A stretch of 64,000 bases of DNA from NCBI GenBank assembly GCA_024398055.1, contig CP073749.1:496001-560000 (forward strand), in the 5' to 3' direction. Source of the DNA: a bacterium SCSIO 12741. GTDB taxonomy: Bacteria; Bacteroidota; Bacteroidia; Flavobacteriales_G; Salibacteraceae. The position numbers and the translations under genes were made by a program. How positions within the stretch are numbered: position 1 is the first letter of the stretch; each line of letters begins with the position of its first letter. This document shows, piece after piece, positions 1 to 53,279 of the stretch. A model generated the notes under the pieces. That model made no database searches, was not told the DNA's origin, and was given only the letters and a program-made list of their open reading frames with translations.

Positions 1-612
1 CTCAAGAATTACCTGGCTTGTCTGGAGTACCCGGTAGTTATCGGAGGAATCTTCTACCAAGACCAAGCACCGGCTGACGAACGACTTATTCTCCGTTGGA
101 AATATGGAATTCACCGGGAGCAAAAATCAGCTGCAGAACGGATGAAAATTCGCTACAGTCATTTCGTCGCCTCCAATTTGTTGATTGAAAAGAAGGTGTT
201 TTTGAACACCCAGCCGAAAGGCAAAATCTTCGGATATGGACACGAAGACACGGCCATTGGAATCCGCCTAAAAGAATTGCACATTCCCCTTCACCACATT
301 GACAATGCCGTAGAACACGCCGGCCTGGATACTTCGGAAGATTTCCTGATCAAGTCCTTGTCCGGAGTGGAAAACCTTACCCGTCTTTTCCGAGCAGGAC
401 TTGCGGGTCGTGAATTGCGGATTTTAAATTACTACCTCAACCTCAAGAAATGGGGCCTGGCCGGAATCAGTCGTTCCATTCTCGGACTTTTCCTTTCAAC
501 CATGGAAAAGAACCTCACCGGAATGAACCCCAATCTGATTTATTTCGATCTCTGGAAAATGTATCACCTAATCCGATTGGATCAGAAGTTTTCTCGAACC
601 ACCGATTCGTAA
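1..612 (+). CDS. Glycosyltransferase family 2, 3' part only
   Basis: The reading frame is open from the first base of the window, so the N-terminal catalytic half lies outside. About 203 residues remain. The visible part has the GYGHEDT motif followed by a basic helix, like the C-terminal acceptor/acid motif (Glyco_transf_7C type) of GT2 enzymes, which transfer a sugar from a nucleotide-sugar donor. The protein probably builds a surface polysaccharide or glycolipid. The gene converges with and overlaps the 3' end of the GT4 gene on the other strand by 31 bp, so no intergenic terminator fits between them. An ATG at 142 is internal, since good homologous sequence continues upstream of it. Family assignment is from motif recognition; substrate unknown. 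Confidence 0.75.
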   Translation, partial: LKNYLACLEYPVVIGGIFYQDQAPADERLILRWKYGIHREQKSAAERMKIRYSHFVASNLLIEKKVFLNTQPKGKIFGYGHEDTAIGIRLKELHIPLHHIDNAVEHAGLDTSEDFLIKSLSGVENLTRLFRAGLAGRELRILNYYLNLKKWGLAGISRSILGLFLSTMEKNLTGMNPNLIYFDLWKMYHLIRLDQKFSRTTDS

Positions 613-1679
613 ACGCCCAGCAATCTCTTTTCTTCTTGTTGCCAGTTGTAATGCTTCCTGGCTTCAAGCGTGTTTTCGTGTAGCCGGTCGTAGCGTTTTT
701 TGTCCTTCAATAAATGATTGATCGCGCTGGCCAGGGTAAAGGGCTGTAAATCATCCACCAAGGTAGCAACCTCAAACTCCTCGTTAAACATTTTGTAATC
801 CGGGTAGTTCATCGCGATTTGAGGAACACCAGAATGCATGTAGTCGTAAAAACGGTTGGCCATGGAGTATTTGTTGCTTAATCCTTTGGCATCAAACAGG
901 GTAAGTCCTAAAGTTGCGCCCAGCGTGTAGTGCACCAGTTCATCCGGCTCCACATACCCTTTAAAACTGACTTTGTCTTCTAAATGCTCCTCTTCTACCC
1001 GATGCATCAATTTCTCGTAAATATCGCCTTTCCCACAAACGATCAATTGACAATCGATTTTGTGCATGGCTTCAATCATGGGTTCGAGTCCACGGCCGTA
1101 ATTGACCGCACCCTGGTACAAAATGTAGGGTTCGTCCTTGGGCACAGTTTTCAATTCCCGGAGTACCGTAGCATTGCGCACAATCTCAAATTCTACCCCA
1201 TATTCTTTGCGGAAAAGTTCAGCATATCCTTTCGATACCGTATACGCATATTTAACCTGAGGTACAATCCACCGTTCTACGGATTTCCAAGCTTTTCGAA
1301 TAGACGGACGATTGACCACCTCCTCCATTTCCGAGAAATATTCATGGGCATCATAAACCAAAGGCTTACCTCGCAAACGAGCAGTCATAAAAGCCGGCAC
1401 CAAAGTATCCAAATCGATTCCACAGATAATATCCATGCGGATAATCATCAGGTACAACAACAACCTCAGGTTGTATTCGATGTAAAAGAGCTTTCCCTTT
1501 TCGAAAAAACAACTCAACCGAACCTGTTTAAAAGGCTGTTTCCTCAGTTTAGGTGATGATTTCTTCACCCGACCAATGAGGGTAACCTCGTATCCGGCCT
1601 CATGCAAAGAGGTGCAGATTCGACGCATCCGCTGGTCATAAACCAAATCGGTGGTAACGGTTAGGGCAATTTTTTTCAA
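582..1679 (-). CDS. Glycosyltransferase family 4 (GT-B fold)
   Basis: A 365-residue protein of the usual GT4 length. The N-terminal Rossmann half holds an LVYDAHEYFSE stretch near residue 105. The C-terminal half has YQGAVNYGRGLEPMIEAM and a KGYVEPDEL segment typical of nucleotide-sugar-binding GT4 domains. It should move a sugar from an NDP-sugar to a lipid- or glycan-linked acceptor at the inner face of the membrane. The start is a TTG at 1679-1677, which overlaps the TGA stop of the upstream formyltransferase (TTGA), so the two are translationally coupled. No signal peptide or membrane helix is seen. Exact sugar and linkage cannot be read from sequence. Confidence 0.85.
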   Translation of the reverse strand: MKKIALTVTTDLVYDQRMRRICTSLHEAGYEVTLIGRVKKSSPKLRKQPFKQVRLSCFFEKGKLFYIEYNLRLLLYLMIIRMDIICGIDLDTLVPAFMTARLRGKPLVYDAHEYFSEMEEVVNRPSIRKAWKSVERWIVPQVKYAYTVSKGYAELFRKEYGVEFEIVRNATVLRELKTVPKDEPYILYQGAVNYGRGLEPMIEAMHKIDCQLIVCGKGDIYEKLMHRVEEEHLEDKVSFKGYVEPDELVHYTLGATLGLTLFDAKGLSNKYSMANRFYDYMHSGVPQIAMNYPDYKMFNEEFEVATLVDDLQPFTLASAINHLLKDKKRYDRLHENTLEARKHYNWQQEEKRLLGVYESVVRENF

Positions 1680-2437
1680 TCGAGCGAATTATACCAAGCC
1701 ATGTCGGCATTACTAATTTGGTCTCCATTTTTTACCTGGGGTGGATCAAAAGGTGGAAACCACGTGGCCCGAAAGTACCTCTTTTGTTTTTCCAGGGGCC
1801 AATTGGCATTAATTTCCTTGAGATCGGCCATTTCCTTTCTCAAGTGGAAGCCCCGGTTTCTATTGGGGTCCAGTTTTTCTTGAGGCACTTCGGTTACTTC
1901 TCCTTTCAAAATAGAGGCAATGCTTTGCTCAAATAACCGGATTGATGCCTCCACCGTTTGGTTGTAAAGGTCTTTTACGAAACAATTTTCGGGAATGGGG
2001 AACCGAGATTCAAACAGCAAAGGCCCTCCATCTATTTTCGGTGTAAGGCGATGAATGGAAGTTCCAAATTCCTCGGCACCGTCAATCAAGGCAAAGGAAA
2101 ACTGATTGCATCCCCGGTACTCCGGTAAGGGAGCCATGTGCAGATTTATGGCCAACTGACGTGCCAGTTCGATATGGCGAGGTAAAAGAATCTCGTGGTA
2201 TTGAACAGAAATCAGGGTATCGAAAGGCTCCAATTCAAACAGGCCTTCCATATCGTAGTAAACAGGAATGGATTGAGCCTTAGCCACGGACTCCAGGGAA
2301 TCTTCCGGAGCACTGAGTTTAGAACGGTTTTCGAAAACCGCAATTACCTCAGCATTCAATTCTTCGGCACGTTCCAAGAGAATTTTCAGGCATATATGCC
2401 CAATTCTCTTTCCTCCCATAAATACAACCTTGTTCAA
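1676..2437 (-). CDS. Formyltransferase-family protein (sugar N-formyltransferase-like)
   Basis: A 253-residue single-domain protein of the formyltransferase family that uses 10-formyltetrahydrofolate. The catalytic triad Asn-x-His ... Asp is visible in INLHMAPLPEYRG (about residue 95) and in TPKIDGGPLL (about residue 130). It lacks the C-terminal tRNA-binding domain of methionyl-tRNA formyltransferase (about 310 residues). Coupled directly to a GT4, it more likely formylates an amino sugar or a similar amine in a surface glycan; that role is inference. Forty-six bases separate its start from the stop of the giant adhesin gene, so read-through from that gene is possible. Confidence 0.75.
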   Translation of the reverse strand: MNKVVFMGGKRIGHICLKILLERAEELNAEVIAVFENRSKLSAPEDSLESVAKAQSIPVYYDMEGLFELEPFDTLISVQYHEILLPRHIELARQLAINLHMAPLPEYRGCNQFSFALIDGAEEFGTSIHRLTPKIDGGPLLFESRFPIPENCFVKDLYNQTVEASIRLFEQSIASILKGEVTEVPQEKLDPNRNRGFHLRKEMADLKEINANWPLEKQKRYFRATWFPPFDPPQVKNGDQISNADMAWYNSLD

Positions 2438-2483: not shown

Positions 2484-5400
2484 TTATTCTTGAACCACCA
2501 GTTTTTGCATGTACAGGGTTCCATCTTCTAAACGAATTCTCAAAACGTAGGTTCCACCGGATCCATCCATCAATTCGATGTCGTAAAGGTTACGCCCGGC
2601 ATGTGCGTAGGTATCTTCTTTGAGAATCTCTTGTCCCACACTATTGACCACGCTCAGGGTGATATTCATACCAGCATCAAGTTCCACAGCAACCTGAAAT
2701 TTACCGTTATTCGGATTCGGGAACAAAGACAAGTCGTCCGAGCAATTGTCAATTCTGATCAGAGCGGAATTCTCTTGGTAGCAACCATGCTCGTCCACTA
2801 CCTTTAAGTCGATAGAATGATTGCCCAGTTCAAATGCTGAAGCCAGCTTTTCGAAGGTTGCCCCCAGGGTATCGTTGTTCCAGATGTAGTAAGCATGACT
2901 GGTATCCGCCACTATCAGGCGAACGGTATCTGAACTACACCAATCGATATTCCCCTCTATGGTGGCATCTGGGAAGGGAAGCAAATCCACCCGACGCAAG
3001 GCACTGTTGGTACATCCTAGGGTATCCGTTATTTCATAAGCCACGTCAAAACTTGAGGCCAATTCGCCACTTACCAAAGTAGTTCTCTTAATTCCATCCA
3101 CATAAAAGCTTCCTCCTGCTGGATGACCATAAGGAGCCAGTTTCAATTCTGGATCACCCTGGCATTTTAGCGGCAGGGAATCAATGCTCGCTTGAGGTAA
3201 TTGGTGCAATTCAAATTGAGCCGCTAAAGTATCGCTGCCGCATCTGCTGGAAACACTGTAGAAAATAGTCTGGGTACCTGCAGGTCGTCCGGCGGGAACA
3301 AATACCGTGTCCTGAATAACTCCCTGACCATGATAAACACCTCCTGTCGGCAATCCCGAAGTGAGGATTACTGGCGCCGAACCGAAACACAAATCTTGGG
3401 GAGTGAAAGACTGAACCCTTTCTACGGTATCCACATGTACTTGTTGGCCTGTCGTATCGGTACATCCATTGCCGTCCACAAAGGCATATTTCAGGTTATA
3501 ATCACCGAAACCAAGGGAAGGATCAAATTGAGTTCCTCCTGCAACACCAGTTCCCATATAATTTCCTCCTGTTGGCATTCCCTCAATCAAAGTATAGCGA
3601 CCTCCATTTTCACAGAGATCAGGAATGGGTCCAAAAGTGACATTCGGTAAAGTATCCACGTTCCAGGTGGTATAAACCGTATCGGTACAACCACTGGTAT
3701 CCGTGTAGCGATAACCTAGGGTAGTGGAACCAGAGCCCACAAGAGTTGCGCTAAAAATCGAATCTTTCACAACCCCAGCTCCCAGGTAACTTCCTCCGGC
3801 AGGAGAGCCTGTTTTGATAACGAAATCAGGGGTATTTTCACAAAGAATAGAAACGGTTCCTAAACTTATGGAAGGCAACGATTTGACCTCAATGGAATCC
3901 ATCAAACTATCCGAACATCCAAAAGAATTGGTGAACAGATAGGATACCGGGTATTTGCCCGGAGCAGCCGGCCCATAAAATACTGAACCGGTAACCTGAG
4001 GACCGGAATAATTTCCTCCTGCAGGAAGTCCGCCGGTTAAAATCAGGGTATCACGGCTACACAAAGCTGCCCAACCCGGAAGTTGAATGACGGGAACTGA
4101 ATCTATCCGAATCGTTTCATCCAGCGTATCCTTACAACCAAAGGAATTGGTATAAGTACAAGAAACGGTGTTTACTCCTGGTGTTAATCCCGATGGATTA
4201 AATTGGTTTCCGGTTACTCCATTACCCAAATAACTCACTCCAATTGGAGATGCGCTTAAGGTTATTGGACTCGCATTTTGACAAATGGAATCAGCCAGAG
4301 CAAAAGTCATCGCCGTTAACGAGTCGATGCGAATGGAATCGGTTAAAGAATTAGAGCAACCGTTGCTTAGGGTATAGCTGTAGGTAATGTATTGTTTTCC
4401 GACGCCCGCTACCTGAGGGTCAAATTGATTACCCGAAACACCTGAACCGCTGAATGTTCCTCCGGCCGGAGTTGCTGAAAGTGTTAACGGACTTCCATTT
4501 ACACAAAGAGAATCAACCAACTGGAAGTTGACACTTGGAGAAACATCCACTTTAATCGTTTGTGAGGCTGAATCCGTACAGGAATTTCCATCGGTAAAGA
4601 CGTACCAAATTGTGAAGGTTCCGATTCCTGTTATTTGAGGATCAAACTGACTATTCAGAATTACGCCATTGCCTTTGTAGGTTCCTCCAGGAGGTGTGGC
4701 AGTATTAATGTTTACCGCCGGACTGGAACTACAAATATCAGCAAGCGCTGGGTAATTAATAACCGGTACCGTATCCACTTTCAAATTAGAGGAAGCCGAA
4801 TCTGTACAGGAATTAGCATCCGTATAGACGTAAGTAATGGTATGGGTACCGGCCTTAGCTACATTGGGGTCAAATTGGCCAGCACTTACTCCCGTTCCTT
4901 TATAGGTTCCTCCAACTGGAGTTGCTCCGGTCAAGGTAAGTATAGTTCCATTCTCACATCGATTAGCAAATGTGGGAATGGTAACTGTAGGCTGACCATG
5001 AACAGTAATCGTTTGGGTTGTACTGGAGCTGCAATTGTTTCTATCGGTATAGCTATAGGTGATGGTATGTGTACCCGCACCTGCTGTGGTCGGATTAAAT
5101 TGTCCTCCACTTACTCCTGTTCCGGAATAAGTTCCACCCGCTGGACTTCCGCCGCTCAAGGCAAAGGCGGCGTCACCAGCACATACTGCTGCAAATGGAT
5201 TTAAGGTAACGGTGGGTTGTGGGTTTACTGTAATCGTTTGCGTAGCGCTATTGGTACAGCTATTTCCATCGGTATAGGTGTAGGTGATCGTATGCGTTCC
5301 TACTCCTGCTGTGGCCGGATTAAATTGTCCTCCGCTTACTCCTGTTCCAGAATAGGTTCCACCCGCTGGACTTCCGCCGCTTAAGGCAAAGGCTGGTGTT

Positions 5401-8400
5401 CCTACACAGGTAGAACTTAAGGCTGAGAAGGTCACGGTTGGCAATGGATTTACCGTTACTGTTGTGCTTGCACTGTCGGTACAGTTGTTCGCATTGGTGT
5501 AGACATAGGTGATCGTATGAGTTCCAGCTCCGGCCGTGGCAGGATTAAACTGTCCTCCACTTACTCCCGTTCCTTTGTAGGTTCCGCCGGCTGGACTTCC
5601 GCCACTCAGAACAAAAGCTGCTGCATCAATACATACCGCATTGATGTTGGCCAGAGTCACATTCGGTTGAGCATGAACAGTGATGGATTGGGTAGCACTT
5701 GAGCTACAGTTATTGCCATCGGTATAGATGTAGGTGATGGTATGTGTACCCGCACCTGCCGTGGTCGGATTAAACTGTCCTCCGCTTACCCCGGCTCCGG
5801 AATAAGTTCCTCCAGCTGGACTTCCGCCGCTCAAGGCAAAGGCGGCGTCACCAGCACATACTGCTGCAAATGGATTTAAGGTAACGGTAGGCTGTGGGTT
5901 TACTGTAATCGTTTGCGTAGTGCTATTGGTACAGCTATTTCCATCGGTATAGGTGTAGGTGATCGTATGCGTTCCTACTCCTGCTGTGGCCGGATTAAAT
6001 TGTCCTCCACTTACTCCGGTTCCAGAATAGGTTCCTCCAGCTGGGCTTCCCCCGCTTAAGGCAAAGGCTGCTGTTCCGACACAAGTTGGTGTTAAGGCTG
6101 AGAAGGTCACGGTTGGCAATGGATTTACCGTAACGGTTGTGCTTGCACTGTCGGTACAGTTATTCGCATTGGTGTAGACATAAGTAATCGTATGAGTTCC
6201 GGCTCCTGCCGTAGCAGGGTTAAACTGTCCTCCACTTACTCCCGTTCCTTTATAGGTTCCGCCGGCTGGGCTTCCGCCACTCAGCGCAAAAGCTGCTGCA
6301 TCAATACATACCGCATTGATATTGGCCAGAGTCACATTCGGTTGAGCGTGAACAGTGATCGATTGGGTCGCACTGGAGCTACAGTTATTGCCATCGGTAT
6401 AGTTGTAGGTGATGGTATGTGTACCCGCACCGGCTGTAGTCGGATTAAATTGTCCTCCACTTACTCCTGTTCCGGAATAAGTTCCACCGGCGGGACTTCC
6501 GCCACTCAAGGCAAAAGCGGCATCACCTGCACAAACTGCTGCGAATGGATTTAAGGTAACGGTAGGCTGTGGGTTTACTGTAATCGTTTGCGTAGCGCTA
6601 TTGGCACAACTGTTTCCATCGGTAAAGGTGTAGGTGATCGTATGCGTTCCTACTCCTGCTGTGGCGGGATTAAACTGTCCTCCGCTTACTCCGGTTCCAG
6701 AATAGGTTCCACCCGCTGGGCTTCCCCCGCTTAGCGCAAAGGCTGCTGTTCCCACACAGGTCGGACTCAGCGCTGAGAAAGTAACCGTTGGCAATGGATT
6801 TACCGTTACCGTTGTGCTTGCACTGTCGGTACAGTTGTTGGCATTGGTGTAGACATAAGTAATCGTATGAGTTCCAGCTCCGGCCGTGGCAGGATTAAAC
6901 TGTCCTCCACTTACTCCCGTTCCTTTGTAGGTTCCGCCGGCTGGACTTCCGCCACTCAGCGCAAAAGCTGCTGCATCAATACAAACCGCATTGATGTTGG
7001 CCAGAGTCACATTCGGTTGAGCGTGAACAGTGATCGATTGGGTCGCACTTGAGCTACAGTTATTGCCATCGGTGTAGTTGTAGGTGATGGTATGTGTACC
7101 CGCACCGGCTGTAGTCGGATTAAATTGTCCTCCGCTTACCCCGGCTCCGGAATAAGTTCCACCGGCTGGACTTCCGCCACTCAATGCAAAAGCGGCATCA
7201 CCAGCACATACTGCTGCGAATGGATTTAAGGTAACGGTGGGTTGTGGATTTACTGTAATCGTTTGCGTGGCACTGTTGGCACAGCTATTTCCATCGGTAT
7301 AGGTGTAGGTGATCGTATGCGTTCCTACTCCTGCTGTGGCTGGGTTAAATTGTCCTCCACTTACTCCGGTTCCAGAATAGGTTCCACCCACTGGACTCCC
7401 CCCGCTTAAAGCAAAGGCTGCTGTTCCCACACAAGTAGGAGTTAAGGCTGAGAAGGTCACGGTTGGCAATGGATTTACTGTAACGGTTGTGCTTGCACTG
7501 TCGGTACAGTTGTTCGCATTGGTGTAGACATAAGTAATCGTATGAGTTCCGGCTCCTGCCGTAGCAGGGTTAAACTGTCCTCCACTTACTCCCGTTCCTT
7601 TGTAGGTTCCGCCGACTGGGCTTCCGCCACTCAGAGCAAAAGCGGCTGCATCAATACATACCGCATTGATATTGGCCAGAGTCACATTCGGTTGAGCGTG
7701 AACAGTGATCGATTGGGTCGCACTGGAGCTACAGTTATTGCCATCGGTGTAGTTGTAGGTGATGGTATGTGTACCCGCACCTGCCGTGGTTGGATTAAAC
7801 TGTCCTCCGCTTACTCCTGTTCCGGAATAAGTTCCTCCAGCTGGACTTCCTCCGCTCAAAGCAAAAGCGGCATCACCTGCACAAACTGCTGCGAATGGAT
7901 TTAAGGTAACTGTGGGTTGTGGATTTACTGTAATCGTTTGAGTGGCACTGTTGGTACAGCTATTTCCATCGGTATAGGTGTAGGTGATCGTATGCGTTCC
8001 TACTCCTGCTGTGGCGGGATTAAACTGTCCTCCGCTTACTCCGGTTCCCGAATAGGTTCCACCTGCTGGACTTCCGCCGCTTAAGGCAAAGGCTGCTGTT
8101 CCCACACAAGTAGGACTCAAGGCTGAGAAGGTAACCGTTGGCAATGGATTTACCGTTACTGTCGTGCTTGCACTGTCGGTACAGTTGTTCGCATTGGTGT
8201 AGACATAGGTGATCGTATGAGTTCCAGCTCCAGCCGTGGCAGGATTAAACTGTCCTCCACTTACTCCCGTTCCTTTATAGGTTCCGCCAGCTGGACTGCC
8301 ACCGCTTAAAGCAAAAGCCGCAGCATCGATACATACCGCATTGATGTTGGCCAAGGTCACAGTTGGACTAGGAAGAACTTCTATGGTTTGTGAAGCTGTA

Positions 8401-8512
8401 TCACTACATCCGGCTCCATCCGAGTATGTATAATAGACTATATGCGTTCCAACTCCGGCAGATATAGGGCTAAACTTCCCGGAGGAGACATGGCTTCCAA
8501 AATAAGTACCCC
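2484..8512 (-). CDS. Giant T9SS-secreted Ig-repeat protein, C-terminal part (after frameshift)
   Basis: This is the larger downstream part of one broken gene that starts at 11131. The frame is entered at the C run 8509-8512, not at the out-of-frame ATG at 8558. It encodes about 2,000 residues: the second half of Ig-like module 5; fifteen near-identical 75-residue modules; about ten diverged modules of the same fold (SPAGGTYxGxGV and TGxGTHTITY cores, each with a Cys pair about 50 residues apart); and an 80-residue T9SS type A sorting domain starting at LFPNPNNG. The product would be exported by Sec, then by T9SS, and anchored at or released from the cell surface. Large Ig-repeat proteins of this kind usually act in adhesion or gliding; the actual role here is inferred. 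Confidence 0.85.
4989..8363 (-). repeat. Higher-order tandem repeat, 5 x 675 bp (15 x 225 bp)
   Basis: Within the giant adhesin the same three 75-residue modules recur in strict order A-B-C five times. A contains LANINAVCIDAAAF, B contains TFSALxPTCVGTAAF, and C contains LNPFAAVCAGDAAF. The array begins at the Thr codon 8361-8363 and ends at 4989, exactly 15 x 225 bp. Copies one period apart resemble each other much more than neighbouring modules do, so the last amplifications copied whole A-B-C triplets. Differences between copies are mainly synonymous, with a few replacements (for example SPVGG for SPAGG). Such an array is prone to copy-number change and to mis-assembly. Confidence 0.95.
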
Positions 8513-11131
8513 AGCCGGCAATCCACCAGAAAGAGTAACATCGGCACTTCCGGCACATACATCCGCCAGAGCGGCAAAGGTGACAACGGGCTTTGCGTTT
8601 ACTTTAACGGTTTGACTCGCCGTATCGGTTCCACAAGTATTGGTAAACAAGTATTGAACGGCATGCGTTCCTACACCCAGGGCATTGGGGTCAAAGGTGT
8701 TGGTCGCCGTTCCATTGATACGATAAGAACCACCCGCTGGACTGCCTCCGCTGAGTGCAAAGGCGGCATCATAAATACACTTATCTGCTAGGTTGGCCAG
8801 GGTGGCTTTGGGAACTGAATCCACATCAACGGTGGTAGTGGCTGTATCATTACAACCATTGGAACTAACGATGTAAGAAATATTATGGGTTCCTGCTCCT
8901 GCAGTACCAGGATAAAACAATACAAAATTGACCCCTGTTCCGATAAAGTATCCTCCAGCCGGCGTTCCATAGGTGGACAGAACCATAAAATTGGTCGACT
9001 CGCACTGATCGGGAATGGCACTCACCGTAGCATTAGGAGCCGCTTTAACAGTAATGGTAGTGCTCGCCGTATCCGGACACCCTAATGACGTGTAGATGTA
9101 CAAAATGGTATGAGTTCCTACACCTGCTACTGAAGGGTCAAACTTGTTGCTACTTACTCCTGGTCCTTGGTATACACCCCCTAATGGAGCCCCACCAAAC
9201 AGGCTAAAAGCAGGTGCATTTTCACACACATCGGAGAAGGGGAACAGCACGGCTGATTGTCCACCAACACTAATATTCTTGTTCGCTGAATCCGAACAGC
9301 CGTTGGAATCGGTGTAAATGTAGTTGAGATTAAAGGACCCAAGCCCAGCGGTTGATGGGCTAAACACGGTGTCTTTCTTGATTCCAATTCCCTTGTAAAT
9401 ACCTCCAGATGGAGAGCCCTGAGTCAAAGTAAAATCAGCATCACCAATACAGGTATTGGGAAAATTGGAAAGGGTTACGTTAGGAATAGGGTTAACCGTA
9501 ACCTTAATGGTTTGGGAGGTATCATAACAACCATCGTCCCACACCACCAGGCTGTAATTACCGGAAATATGGGCTTTGTAAACAGTGTCGGTAGCAGCCA
9601 CGATTGGGATGCCGTTATACATCCATTGGTAATCTAATGAGGCCTTGTTGTTTGAGGTCAATCGGACGGAATCTCCGTTACACACTTCGGTTCCAAGAGG
9701 AGCTTTGATAATCGCCGTATCCGCATCGATACAGTCGGACACCTTCACGATAAAAGCATCCCTTTGTTTGTTGCTGATGGCTACCTTATCACCAAATGCG
9801 GCAATACCATTAAACTCTCCGCATGCATAAATATTTTTGTTGGAATCCAGGCTAATTGCGTTTCCCTGATCAAAGGAACTCCCTCCGGCCTGCTGGGCCC
9901 AAATAAACTTCCCAGCAGAATCTACCAGGGAGAAGTAAATTCCATAATACCCTATCGAACTTAGGGTGGTAGAGCCAAAATCTGCACTATTAAAAAATCG
10001 CCCAGTGATTCCGCAATTGGTTCGGTTGTCTACATCCATGCTGTAGGCATAGTCATAACTCACACCACCGGCACTGGACACCCATTGCGCGGCACCTGAG
10101 GTATCATAGCGAACGACAAAAATATCGTAACCTCCTTTGGAGGTCACGCTCTTGGTTCCAAAAGTGGCCGTATTCTGAAAGGAGCCACTCATGTATACCA
10201 GGTTATGTTTGTCTACTGCAATTCCGGCTCCGTCATCAAAACCAGTACCGCCTTCATCTTTGACCCATATTACCTTACCGTTTCCGTCCATTTTGGCGAT
10301 GAATGCGCTGTAGTAATTGGCAGGCACAGAAAGGCTCGATCCAGCAAAGTTCATACTTTGATAAAACCGTCCGGTCATGTATAAGTTTTGAGCCTTGTCG
10401 ATCGTAATGTCATTCACGTTGGTGTAACCCGGACCGGTTACCGCTTTGGCCCATTTGAAGTTTCCGTTTTTATCGAGTTTGGTAATAAAACTTTCGTATT
10501 GATTGAAGGTCGTCGCATTTAGGGTGGTTGTATCAAACTTCGCTGTGCCACGAAAACCGCCGGTTACGTAGATATTGTCAGCAGTATCTATGGTCACTCT
10601 TGGGTAAGCCGCCCACCAATAGGAATAGGCATAAACCCAAACGTTTCCTACTTCGGCGGTTTTAACCCATAAAATCTTTCCGGTAGTATCCAATTTGGCT
10701 ACAAACAAACGTCCGTTTGATGCGGTAGCAGAAGGGAGATTGAAGGTGTCAATTTTGGCGTTACTACTCTTGTAGTAGCCCACCATAACCAGTTCATCTG
10801 AATTTTTGTTCAAGGCCAATCCTGTTCCTACATCTGCGTTGGATCCGCCACCACTCAAAACCCATTTTTGGTTACCCCGAACGTCGTGCTTAACCAAAAA
10901 TATTTCGGCCACATTTCCGGTAATGGTATCCTTACCCCATGTCGGTTTGTAATTAGGTCCTGCGGTAACGGCTCCGGTAACGTAGTTGTTTCCTACTTGA
11001 TCGGCTACCACTTCGAATGAGACGTCTTGGGCATCTCCTCCACCGTTCTTTACCCAATCGACTTGTTGGGCAAAAACAGGTGTAATAAATAGTGATAGTA
11101 TTAGAGTTATTGCTGGTAAAAGTTTGATCAT
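8509..11131 (-). CDS. Giant T9SS-secreted Ig-repeat protein, N-terminal part (before frameshift)
   Basis: Start chosen at the ATG 11131-11129, because it opens a clean Sec signal peptide (MIKLLPAITLILSLFITPVFA) with GGAGGG just upstream. A longer frame to 11209 only adds 26 non-hydrophobic residues. Residues about 23-470 are SBBP-type propeller repeats (GNxYVTGxF, KWAK, AGGSxFD). They are followed by a divergent Ig-like domain with QWMYNG, then by Ig-like modules 1-5. The frame runs out at 8438 after module 5 loses register at the C run 8509-8512; restoring one base joins it to the next part. The repaired gene, 2484-11131, has 8,649 nt, or 2,882 codons plus stop. An extracellular surface protein; ligand unknown. 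Confidence 0.85.
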
Positions 11132-11223
11132 ACGCCCTCCATTAAAAGGTTCATAGATAGTTAGTTGCAAATGGCTTTGCGACGCCCCTATTCTAGAGGT
11201 AAGACTCACAAATTAAGAAATAG

Positions 11224-11269: not shown

Positions 11270-12292
11270 ATGAAAATTGTCGTCACCGGAGGCCTTGGTT
11301 ACATAGGCTCCCACACCATTGCAGAGATTCAGCAAACCACCGATTGGGAGGTTTTATCCATAGACAACCACCTTAATTCTCTTCCCGATTTTGCGCAACG
11401 GATTGAAGACGTGACGGGTAAACCCGTGATAAATCATCCTATTGACCTGAGAGATTTTGAGGCTCTTCGAAGCTTTTTCAAAACTGAAAAAGACATTGAT
11501 GGAATCATTCATTTCGCGGCCCTCAAAGCGGTGGGAGAATCGGTAGAAAAACCTTTGCTTTATTACGACAATAATCTCAATGGACTGATTCATATTCTCA
11601 AATGTTGCGAAGAATTTGATATTCCGTCTTTTATATTTTCTTCATCCTGTTCTATTTATGGGTCGGTAACCACGTTGCCGGTCAATGAAGAAACACCTTT
11701 TTCTCCGACAGAATCTCCCTACGCTTACACCAAACTTGTAGGTGAACAGATACTTCGGGATTTCGCCAAAAAACGCTCTACCCAAACCATATCTTTACGG
11801 TATTTCAATCCGGTTGGAGCTCACCCAAGTGGAAAGATTGGAGAATATCCCATCCAAAAACCATCTAATCTGTTTCCAGTAATTACACAACGTGCCAGTG
11901 GCTGGATCGACGAAATGTTTGTTCATGGTCTGGACTATCCAACACGAGACGGATCTTGCATCAGAGACTACATCCATGTTTGTGATATAGCCAGAGCACA
12001 CATTCAGGCATTGGAAAAATTAGCCAAAGACCCGAACAAAGAGTTCATAGATTTTTATAACCTTGGCTCGGGTGAAGGCGTAAGCGTACTTGAAGCCATT
12101 TCAGCTTTTGAACGCAATGCTGGAATGAAGCTGGATTACAAAATTGGGCCTCGCCGTTCGGGCGATACTATTGCTATTTATAGCGATAGTTCCAAAGCCC
12201 ACCAAGAGTTGGGATGGGAAGCCCAACATTCGATAGATGAAATGATGACCAGTGCATGGGCCTGGCAACAACAACTTAATAAGGAAAAATAA
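11270..12292 (+). CDS. galE: UDP-glucose 4-epimerase
   Basis: A 340-residue extended short-chain dehydrogenase. The NAD-binding GGLGYIGSHT motif is at residues 7-16, FSSSCSIYG lies near residue 125, and the catalytic Tyr-x-x-x-Lys is in SPYAYTK near residue 150. These are the classic GalE features, and the length matches the family (about 340). It interconverts UDP-glucose and UDP-galactose using tightly bound NAD in the cytoplasm and supplies galactose donors for surface glycans. The next gene, another sugar-nucleotide SDR, starts only 4 nt downstream, so the two form an operon. The C-terminal RRSGDTIAIYSDSSKA segment is also typical of GalE. Confidence 0.93.
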   Translation: MKIVVTGGLGYIGSHTIAEIQQTTDWEVLSIDNHLNSLPDFAQRIEDVTGKPVINHPIDLRDFEALRSFFKTEKDIDGIIHFAALKAVGESVEKPLLYYDNNLNGLIHILKCCEEFDIPSFIFSSSCSIYGSVTTLPVNEETPFSPTESPYAYTKLVGEQILRDFAKKRSTQTISLRYFNPVGAHPSGKIGEYPIQKPSNLFPVITQRASGWIDEMFVHGLDYPTRDGSCIRDYIHVCDIARAHIQALEKLAKDPNKEFIDFYNLGSGEGVSVLEAISAFERNAGMKLDYKIGPRRSGDTIAIYSDSSKAHQELGWEAQHSIDEMMTSAWAWQQQLNKEK

Positions 12293-49146: not shown

Positions 49147-49211
49147 TCAATTTTCAGGCTCAATTTTCAGGCTCAATCTTCAAACTCAATCTTCAAACTC
49201 AATCTTCAATC
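49147..49211. repeat. 13-bp intergenic repeats (TCAATTTTCA family), locus 2
   Basis: Directly after the CapD stop come TCAATTTTCAGGC twice, TCAATCTTCAAAC twice and a 12-bp TCAATCTTCAAT, head to tail. Unit sequence and 13-bp spacing match the array at 44393-44432. A small hairpin CCGAT-AGCC-ATCGG follows at 49223-49236. Confidence 0.85.
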
Positions 49212-49328
49212 TTCAAGTTCAATCCGATAGCCATCGGATCAGACTCAATTCCTAGCTAAAGAGCGACCTCTGAAAGGCAGTTTCAGAATTCGGAATTCAG
49301 AATTTTCAAGTTAGCTTACGGTTCTGTA

Positions 49329-52095: not shown

Positions 52096-52220
52096 GCCGT
52101 AAACTCAATCTAACGACATACTACTGCACCTCAACCTGTATTCTGGCATTCCTAATAACACATGGTGCACCTGTCAGATTTTAGTTTGTGTTGTACCTTC
52201 GACCAAACAATACCAAAACC

Positions 52221-53279
52221 ATGTTCAGAAAATCCCTACTCTTTTGCCTGCTAATCGGCTATAGTTCATTCCTCAGTTCTCAGAATACCGCCTATGTGGT
52301 TTCCCCCAGCGGAGATATTAAGCAAACTACCAATGGCGGGGCAACCTGGTCCATTATGGGTGACGCCCAACAGACCACCCAAGACATGTCCTTTCCAACC
52401 GAATTAACGGGATATGTAGCGTCTCCAAGTGGAGATATCAAACAAACCACCGATGGTGGTGCCACTTGGTCTATCGTTGGAGATGCTCAGCAAACCACAG
52501 AAAAAATTTCATTCCCAACTGCATCAACAGGTTATGTTGTATCTCCCAGCGGAGATATTAAACGAACCTCCAATGGTGGAGTTACCTGGTCCATCGTGGG
52601 AGATGCCCAACAGACTATACGAGATATTTCTTTTCCGACGGAAACAACCGGATATGTTGTATCCCCAAGTGGAGACATCAAACAAACCACGGATGGTGGT
52701 GTCACTTGGTCCATTATGGGTGACGCTCAACAAACCACCAGATCGCTGTCTTTTCCAACTGAATTAGTTGGCTATGTAGTATCTCCAAGTGGAGATATCA
52801 AGAAAACGTCAAACGGCGGTGTAACCTGGTCGATTGTGGGAGATGCCCAACAAACGACTGAAGACATGTCCTTCGCCAGCGAATTAGTTGGATATGTTAC
52901 GGCTCCCAGTGGAAATATCAAACAAACTGTAGATGGAGGCATCACCTGGTCAATTGTAGGCAGTGCCAGCCAGACTACCGATGCCATTTCTGCCGCTCGG
53001 GAAACGCCAAATTCAACCGAAAATCTGAATAGTAACCGATTTGAAGAAACGATCAAGATTCATCCTGTCCCAACCCATGGACAGCTGCAGGTAGATGCCG
53101 AAGGGACGACTTTAAACTCAGTCATTATCCAGTCCGTGCAAGGCAAGGTTGTATTTTCATCATCCGATTTCTCAGGTTCTCGGGCAACGCTTGACATCAG
53201 CTTTTTATCTGCAGGAGTTTACTATGTGGAGGTTAGGACAGAAAACGGACCTTTCGTGCAGAAAATCATCAAAGAATGA
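52221..53279 (+). CDS. Secreted repeat protein with T9SS sorting domain
   Basis: About 352 residues. The signal peptide is MFRKSLLFCLLIGYSSFLSSQ. Six 40-residue repeats (about 25-264) with the core YVVSPSGDIKQTTNGGATWSI contain an Asp-box-like TxNGGxTWS motif, as in BNR/YCF48 propellers. After a linker rich in Glu, Asn and Arg comes a T9SS type A sorting domain (KIHPVPTHGQLQV to the end). Six near-identical blades suggest a small beta-propeller or a solenoid built by recent duplication. Start ATG 52221 is chosen for its signal peptide. Substrate or ligand unknown; expected at the cell surface. Confidence 0.8.
   Translation: MFRKSLLFCLLIGYSSFLSSQNTAYVVSPSGDIKQTTNGGATWSIMGDAQQTTQDMSFPTELTGYVASPSGDIKQTTDGGATWSIVGDAQQTTEKISFPTASTGYVVSPSGDIKRTSNGGVTWSIVGDAQQTIRDISFPTETTGYVVSPSGDIKQTTDGGVTWSIMGDAQQTTRSLSFPTELVGYVVSPSGDIKKTSNGGVTWSIVGDAQQTTEDMSFASELVGYVTAPSGNIKQTVDGGITWSIVGSASQTTDAISAARETPNSTENLNSNRFEETIKIHPVPTHGQLQVDAEGTTLNSVIIQSVQGKVVFSSSDFSGSRATLDISFLSAGVYYVEVRTENGPFVQKIIKE
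52293..53012 (+). repeat. Six in-frame 120-bp tandem repeats
   Basis: Units start at 52293, 52413, 52533, 52653, 52773 and 52893, each encoding about 40 residues from Tyr-Val. The first five are nearly identical at protein level and the sixth is more diverged. The phase is exact, so no indel has occurred since duplication. Confidence 0.93.

Follow-up and report, generated by a model that had tools for sequence, protein, structure and literature searches.

Why does a single bacterial gene carry a long run of equally sized modules that repeat in threes, and what has kept these modules so alike at the protein level? The question arises from an array at 4989-8363 (minus strand) of the window, by which we mean the whole 64,000-nucleotide stretch of DNA analysed here.

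Arrangement of the array

The array consists of fifteen 225-bp modules without any remainder (3375 bp = 15.0 x 225), all of them in frame. They belong to three classes, A, B and C, which follow each other in strict order and form five A-B-C triplets (Table 1). The module count of 15 is taken from a one-contig assembly. As an independent call, Tandem Repeats Finder gives a period of 225 with 14.7 copies at 5005-8318, and the similarity drops sharply just beyond the array ends at 4989 and 8363. The original prediction had described exactly this length, order and position, and the length, the module classes and the identities at different lags all prove it right.

We have calculated the mean nucleotide identity for each module lag. 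It is 0.696, 0.692, 0.697 and 0.688 at lags 1, 2, 4 and 5, respectively, and 0.918, 0.924, 0.906 and 0.907 at lags 3, 6, 9 and 12. In terms of sequence offset, the maxima lie at 675 and 1350 bp (0.92), against 0.69-0.70 at 225 and 450 bp, and the observed lag-3 similarity is higher than in all 20,000 permutations of the module order. That is, modules one period apart are far more alike than neighbours (92% versus 70%), as had been claimed, and the array is a higher-order repeat in the sense that copies one unit apart (0.918) exceed adjacent monomers (0.696) in identity. The lag-3 peak supports the proposed growth by triplet amplification. For copies one to four triplets apart the identity is flat, so the order of the duplications is unreadable from it.

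Same-type module pairs are 87-97% identical in DNA and different-type pairs 65-75%, and these two ranges do not overlap. Equal divergence among A, B and C irrespective of distance, which had been named as the pattern speaking against this arrangement, is therefore absent. At the protein level, identity is 92-100% within a module type, while it is 67-76% between types. The description of fifteen near-identical modules accordingly holds within each type but not between types.

Table 1 Features of the array, its host gene and the neighbouring genes in the window.
Feature	Position	Strand	Basis or remark
Whole gene, about 2,880 residues	2484..11131	-	two overlapping ORFs, 8438-11209 and 2484-8558, from frameshift
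Signal peptide MIKLLPAITLILSLFITPVFA	11069..11131	-	read by eye from the translation
Beta-propeller of SBBP repeats	9740..10600	-	PF06739 40.3 bits, cut-off 20.5
Ig-like modules N1-N4	8588..9478	-	collinear with orthologs
Ig-like module N5	about 8364-8585	-	contains frameshift
Short G run, reading frame shifts	8509..8512	-	inside Ig-like module N5
Array, fifteen 225-bp modules in five A-B-C triplets	4989..8363	-	lag identity, module classes, permutation
Triplet 1	7689..8363	-	A1 8139-8363, B1 7914-8138, C1 7689-7913
Triplet 2	7014..7688	-	
Triplet 3	6339..7013	-	
Triplet 4	5664..6338	-	
Triplet 5	4989..5663	-	C module most divergent, 92-93% protein identity to other C modules
Nine divergent Ig-like modules D1-D9	2970..4985	-	several collinear with orthologs
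Type IX secretion C-terminal sorting domain (type A)	2493..2726	-	TIGR04183 28.6 bits, cut-off 23; PF18962 29.1, cut-off 27
Two downstream genes, 582-1679 and 1676-2437	582..2437	-	adjacency kept in orthologs
NAD-dependent sugar epimerase-like gene, upstream	11270..12292	+	adjacency kept in orthologs; function predicted by sequence resemblance

Selection on the copies and possible exchange among them

In the alignment of the five triplets, 109 of 675 positions are variable, and 89 of these 109 are third codon positions, which agrees with the claim that the copies differ mainly there. Between triplets, dN is 0.006-0.027 and dS 0.24-0.47, giving dN/dS values of 0.015-0.083. The array protein is under strong purifying selection. 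Moreover, such dS and dN/dS values mean that the copies have not been homogenised recently: they are old and have drifted widely at silent sites. Overall, purifying selection on an old array better explains the uniform protein than recent amplification or wholesale conversion does. The original prediction had left the choice between selection and gene conversion, and what stands of it is mainly selection, with conversion confined to short patches at most.

On the other hand, the four-gamete test reveals incompatibility at many pairs of variable sites. The linkage of variable sites (r2) falls with distance from 0.78 to 0.53, 0.39 and then about 0.25, which is the background, and this decay is complete within about 30 bp (permutation p about 0.001). 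Site saturation as the sole cause of the incompatible sites is ruled out by the decay of linkage with distance. The pattern suggests short mosaic tracts, from some conversion in which short patches were exchanged between triplets or from polishing error, and part of it may be the product of short-read polishing of a long-read assembly. Exchange between module types is a different matter. At the 42 of 75 residues that are identical across all fifteen modules, codon identity is 83% within types versus 56% between types, so between-type exchange is not homogenising the core.

It could be argued that the modules owe their likeness mainly to gene conversion and unequal crossing-over that are still going on, that is, to a satellite-like concerted evolution with little selection on the protein. 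The rapid loss of linkage and the four-gamete failures would fit such a process, as would the fact that triplets 2 and 4, both of them inner, are the most alike pair (0.939). However, conversion alone would homogenise silent and replacement sites together, while here a high dS stands beside a very low dN. Likeness is also not lost with the distance between copies, and only 2 of the 10 triplet pairs share an identical run of a length beyond expectation (p<0.05). We therefore regard concerted evolution as an unlikely explanation. Another proposal is that the synonymous diversity between triplets is itself selected, as it would prevent the array from collapsing by recombination. This would account for a high dS with a constant protein, and for longest identical runs between triplets of 52-98 bp at most, yet age together with purifying selection gives the same pattern with no extra force, and we consider this proposal highly improbable. 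Purifying selection on an old array is thus the reading that we carry into the following analyses.

Module fold, host gene and the variable middle zone

For the fold of the modules, four of them (A1-B1-C1-A2) were modelled with AlphaFold (AF2) from an alignment with 52 relatives. The model has a mean pLDDT of 97.7 and a pTM of 0.77, without low-confidence linkers. In it, each module folds as a small beta-sandwich and carries two conserved cysteines, at module positions 11 and 61, which are invariant or nearly so. Judged by the model confidence, the secondary structure and these cysteines, the chain would form a straight stalk with disulfides. In a Foldseek search, the best matches are pieces of GhpA from Aureispira, the neck included (9flp, E 1.9e-11; 9g8b; 9fls, TM 0.60/0.55; 9flw), followed by extending adhesins, contactin-type Ig chains and cadherins. 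The modelled chain thus belongs with GhpA-fold Ig-like chains at an E of 1.9e-11 and a TM of up to 0.60, and the Ig-like fold that had been proposed is supported by the model and the matches together.

At the level of sequence, the module profile finds All3314 (PDB 7b5h) among solved structures with an E of 4.1e-22, and the profile search up to E = 10 lists four chains, with GhpA absent from them. The full-length array ORF has no match to solved structures, presumably owing to repeat bias correction. We have compared the modules with the bacterial Ig-like families Big_3_5, Big_9, HYR and Bact_surface_Ig-like of Pfam. No single A, B or C module reaches a gathering score (best 18.0-19.5 bits; cut-off 35.5 for Big_3_5 and 23.6 for Big_9), whereas the summed score of a triplet passes the cut-off for some Pfam Ig-like families. 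The 75-residue two-cysteine GGTYSGTGV module occurs in 60 of 60 related genomes searched, with tens of matches in many of them, and it looks like an uncurated domain family.

The array makes up about 39% of one gene, which the assembly splits into two overlapping ORFs. Its product starts at 11131 with a signal-peptide-like stretch (read by eye), followed by the propeller, N1-N5, the fifteen-module array, D1-D9, a last Ig-like stretch and the sorting domain, with about 30 Ig-like modules in all. The propeller region matches CylK propeller structures (2.7e-23) and the LipL53-family profile (1.1e-29, below the cut-off of that profile), and the propeller is the probable tip of the protein. The type IX machinery is present in the genome (SprA, 2489 bits), which holds a large repertoire of sorting tails, at least 150 over the cut-off (332 candidates at first look).

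The window also contains a second type IX substrate, at 52188-53279 (plus strand), with five to six 40-residue repeats (YVVSPSGDIKQTTNGGVTWSIVGDAQQTT...) and a sorting tail. Its repeats have similarities of 0.72, 0.75, 0.74 and 0.79 at distances of 1, 2, 3 and 4 repeats, respectively, so that a higher-order period is weak at best. An intergenic 13/20-bp tandem repeat, TCAATCTTCAAAC, lies at 49147-49224.

The reading frame of the host gene is interrupted by a one-base frameshift in the G run of N5, which might point to a pseudogene in decay, or to a switch gene that the frameshift has turned off. Against this, both frames are otherwise open over about 2,880 codons, the dN/dS within the array is <0.1, and the orthologs are intact, which makes such a decay or switch quite unlikely. 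Long-read assemblies commonly contain errors of this kind, with one slip in a run of G. Since the orthologs are open through that point, we attribute the frameshift either to an error of sequencing or to a change specific to this lineage.

We have searched for relatives with the N-terminal part of the protein, and have found clear ones in the same family in five genomes (G008, G017, G002 with two, G005 and G025). The orthologs are single ORFs of 2937, 2241 and 2216 codons. In most of them N1-N4 correspond one-to-one, several D modules come next in order, and the middle zone differs. G005 has a single set of A-like, B-like and C-like modules (normalised scores 0.69, 0.77 and 0.76), in G017 one contig ends with C-A-B and another begins with C-A-B-C, and G008 has triplets of its own, 0.86-0.94 alike. 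G005 and G008 retain both the downstream gene pair and the upstream epimerase-like gene; in G017, these neighbour genes flank the two contig ends. With collinear flanks, conserved neighbour genes and a differing middle, the locus is orthologous across these genera and its middle zone has been expanded separately, triplet-wise in at least three lineages (the window, G017 and G008). The A-B-C order is older than at least some of these genera.

The contigs of two relatives break inside the repeat zone (L030 and L042 in G017, L035 and L198 in G002), as is expected for short-read assemblies. Because these drafts end within the zone, the stalk lengths there are underestimated.

Based on the above analyses, we put the chance at roughly three in four that the array serves as an expandable stalk in the middle of a large type IX-secreted surface protein. 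Since the orthologs keep the flanking modules and carry other middle zones, the middle appears as a triplet-expandable stalk, and the confident sandwiches without flexible linkers in the model, as well as the terminal position of the propeller, agree with this. The sorting tail would lead to export and would anchor the C-terminal end at the cell surface, and the chain of beta-sandwiches, with two conserved cysteines per module, would keep the propeller at a distance from the cell. An ancestral A-B-C block may have been amplified as a unit via unequal recombination in the middle of the chain, in which case triplet amplification would alter the reach in three-module steps. Afterwards, purifying selection would leave little room for change in each module type, and hence in any of the three junction kinds. 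One caution is that, given the frameshift in the assembly, the full-length protein might not be made.

The original prediction had spoken of copy number setting the reach of an adhesin. A role as a surface stalk is favoured by the type IX tail, the signal-peptide-like start and the middle zones of the orthologs; the label of adhesin is predicted only, with no binding domain among the identified parts. Strain-to-strain variation of the copy number is a plausible prediction. Between genera, the middle zone does differ.

It might also be supposed that the protein is part of a multimeric predation appendage like the grappling hooks of GhpA, rather than a single-chain stalk, considering that grappling hooks consist of a type IX substrate and that GhpA pieces are the top structural matches. 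But a chain of Ig-like sandwiches is a common fold to share, the module profile misses GhpA, and the window protein bears a propeller head. Such an appendage is therefore very unlikely, and the single-chain stalk is the reading that we keep.

The period of three and known systems

We have examined other arrays of at least eight modules by permutation of the module order, and have found a significant period 3 in 12 of about 50 dereplicated array groups, a recurrence that is less expected. Period 2 is seen in 3-4 of these groups, and periods 4 and 5 in one each, while the nearest neighbour is the best lag in 5. With the threshold of p < 0.01, chance should yield about half a false positive for each lag. 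The triplets in five array loci (L096, L082, L088, L114 and L052) are built of array-specific modules, so they look independent of A-B-C, and several of the triplets clearly have no relation to one another. L052 (Flavobacterium aquariorum) is a very regular array with period 3, about 88-92% identical. Two others, L059 (17 modules, 90%) and L081, seem to have grown by duplication of one module at a time.

These numbers could be taken to mean that three is the favoured amplification unit of this Ig-like module across Bacteroidota, with trimer blocks having arisen separately many times for structural reasons. We hold this general claim to be doubtful. Most array loci came from a three-module query, the threshold for grouping the arrays was loose, and the few arrays found without that query have no period 3; the preference for three is therefore treated as a lead. 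Single-module searches in 198 and 396 genomes of the phylum did not recover enough long arrays to assess period 3 without bias. A possible cause would be a turn of about 120 degrees per module, such that every third module faces the same way. Alternatively, unlike neighbours would limit misfolding, and identical modules three apart would still permit length-changing recombination, although the neighbours here are still 67-76% identical. Should an unbiased survey confirm the preference, the unit in which the gene is amplified would be linked to protein geometry or folding.

Whatever its cause, the growth by three-domain blocks in the central part of this giant surface protein, between two ends that stay collinear in the related genera, offers a clear example from bacteria, and silent sites provide a measure of how old the copies are. 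In addition, as the draft assemblies of relatives (G017 and G002) break inside such arrays, stalk lengths taken from drafts are unreliable.

For higher-order repeats in bacterial surface proteins, we have found nothing on point in the literature. Multi-domain duplication and length-variable stalks are each already known, and they are combined here in a type IX substrate. Duplication of several domains in the middle of the repeat region is a common growth mode of domain repeats, such as the units of seven in nebulin, zinc fingers and FnIII (PMC1553488), and titin has super-repeats (PMC10665226). Similar to them, a multi-domain block was duplicated mid-repeat in our array, with similarity peaking at the block length; in contrast to them, the array is bacterial, lies in a type IX substrate and has an exact 675-bp block, with coding uninterrupted apart from the frameshift. 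The higher-order repeats of alpha satellites likewise have divergent monomers inside a tandemly repeated unit, whereas the array is coding and under strong purifying selection, and its unit copies differ by 6-10%, mostly synonymously.

Among proteins of solved structure, All3314 comes closest to the modules by sequence profile, but it is a different kind of protein, its copies in the alignment being diverse and without a triplet array. GhpA (grappling hook protein A) is, like the window protein, a Bacteroidota type IX substrate of Ig-like sandwiches and provides the best structural matches, but it has no match to the sequence profile of the modules. Periscope Proteins, the length-variable bacterial stalks such as Sgo_0707, SasG and Rib (PMC8201768, PMC9704523), may be comparable in that a surface-directed protein would carry its head on a tandem array of folded domains of over 50 residues (here 75), with DNA similarity able to support recombination. 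The avoidance of misfolding between like neighbours is a rule discussed for large multidomain proteins (PMC8201768). Unlike in Periscope Proteins, near-identity in our array is confined to modules three apart, and the DNA identity of neighbours is 65-75%; the protein, moreover, is predicted to be exported by the type IX system.
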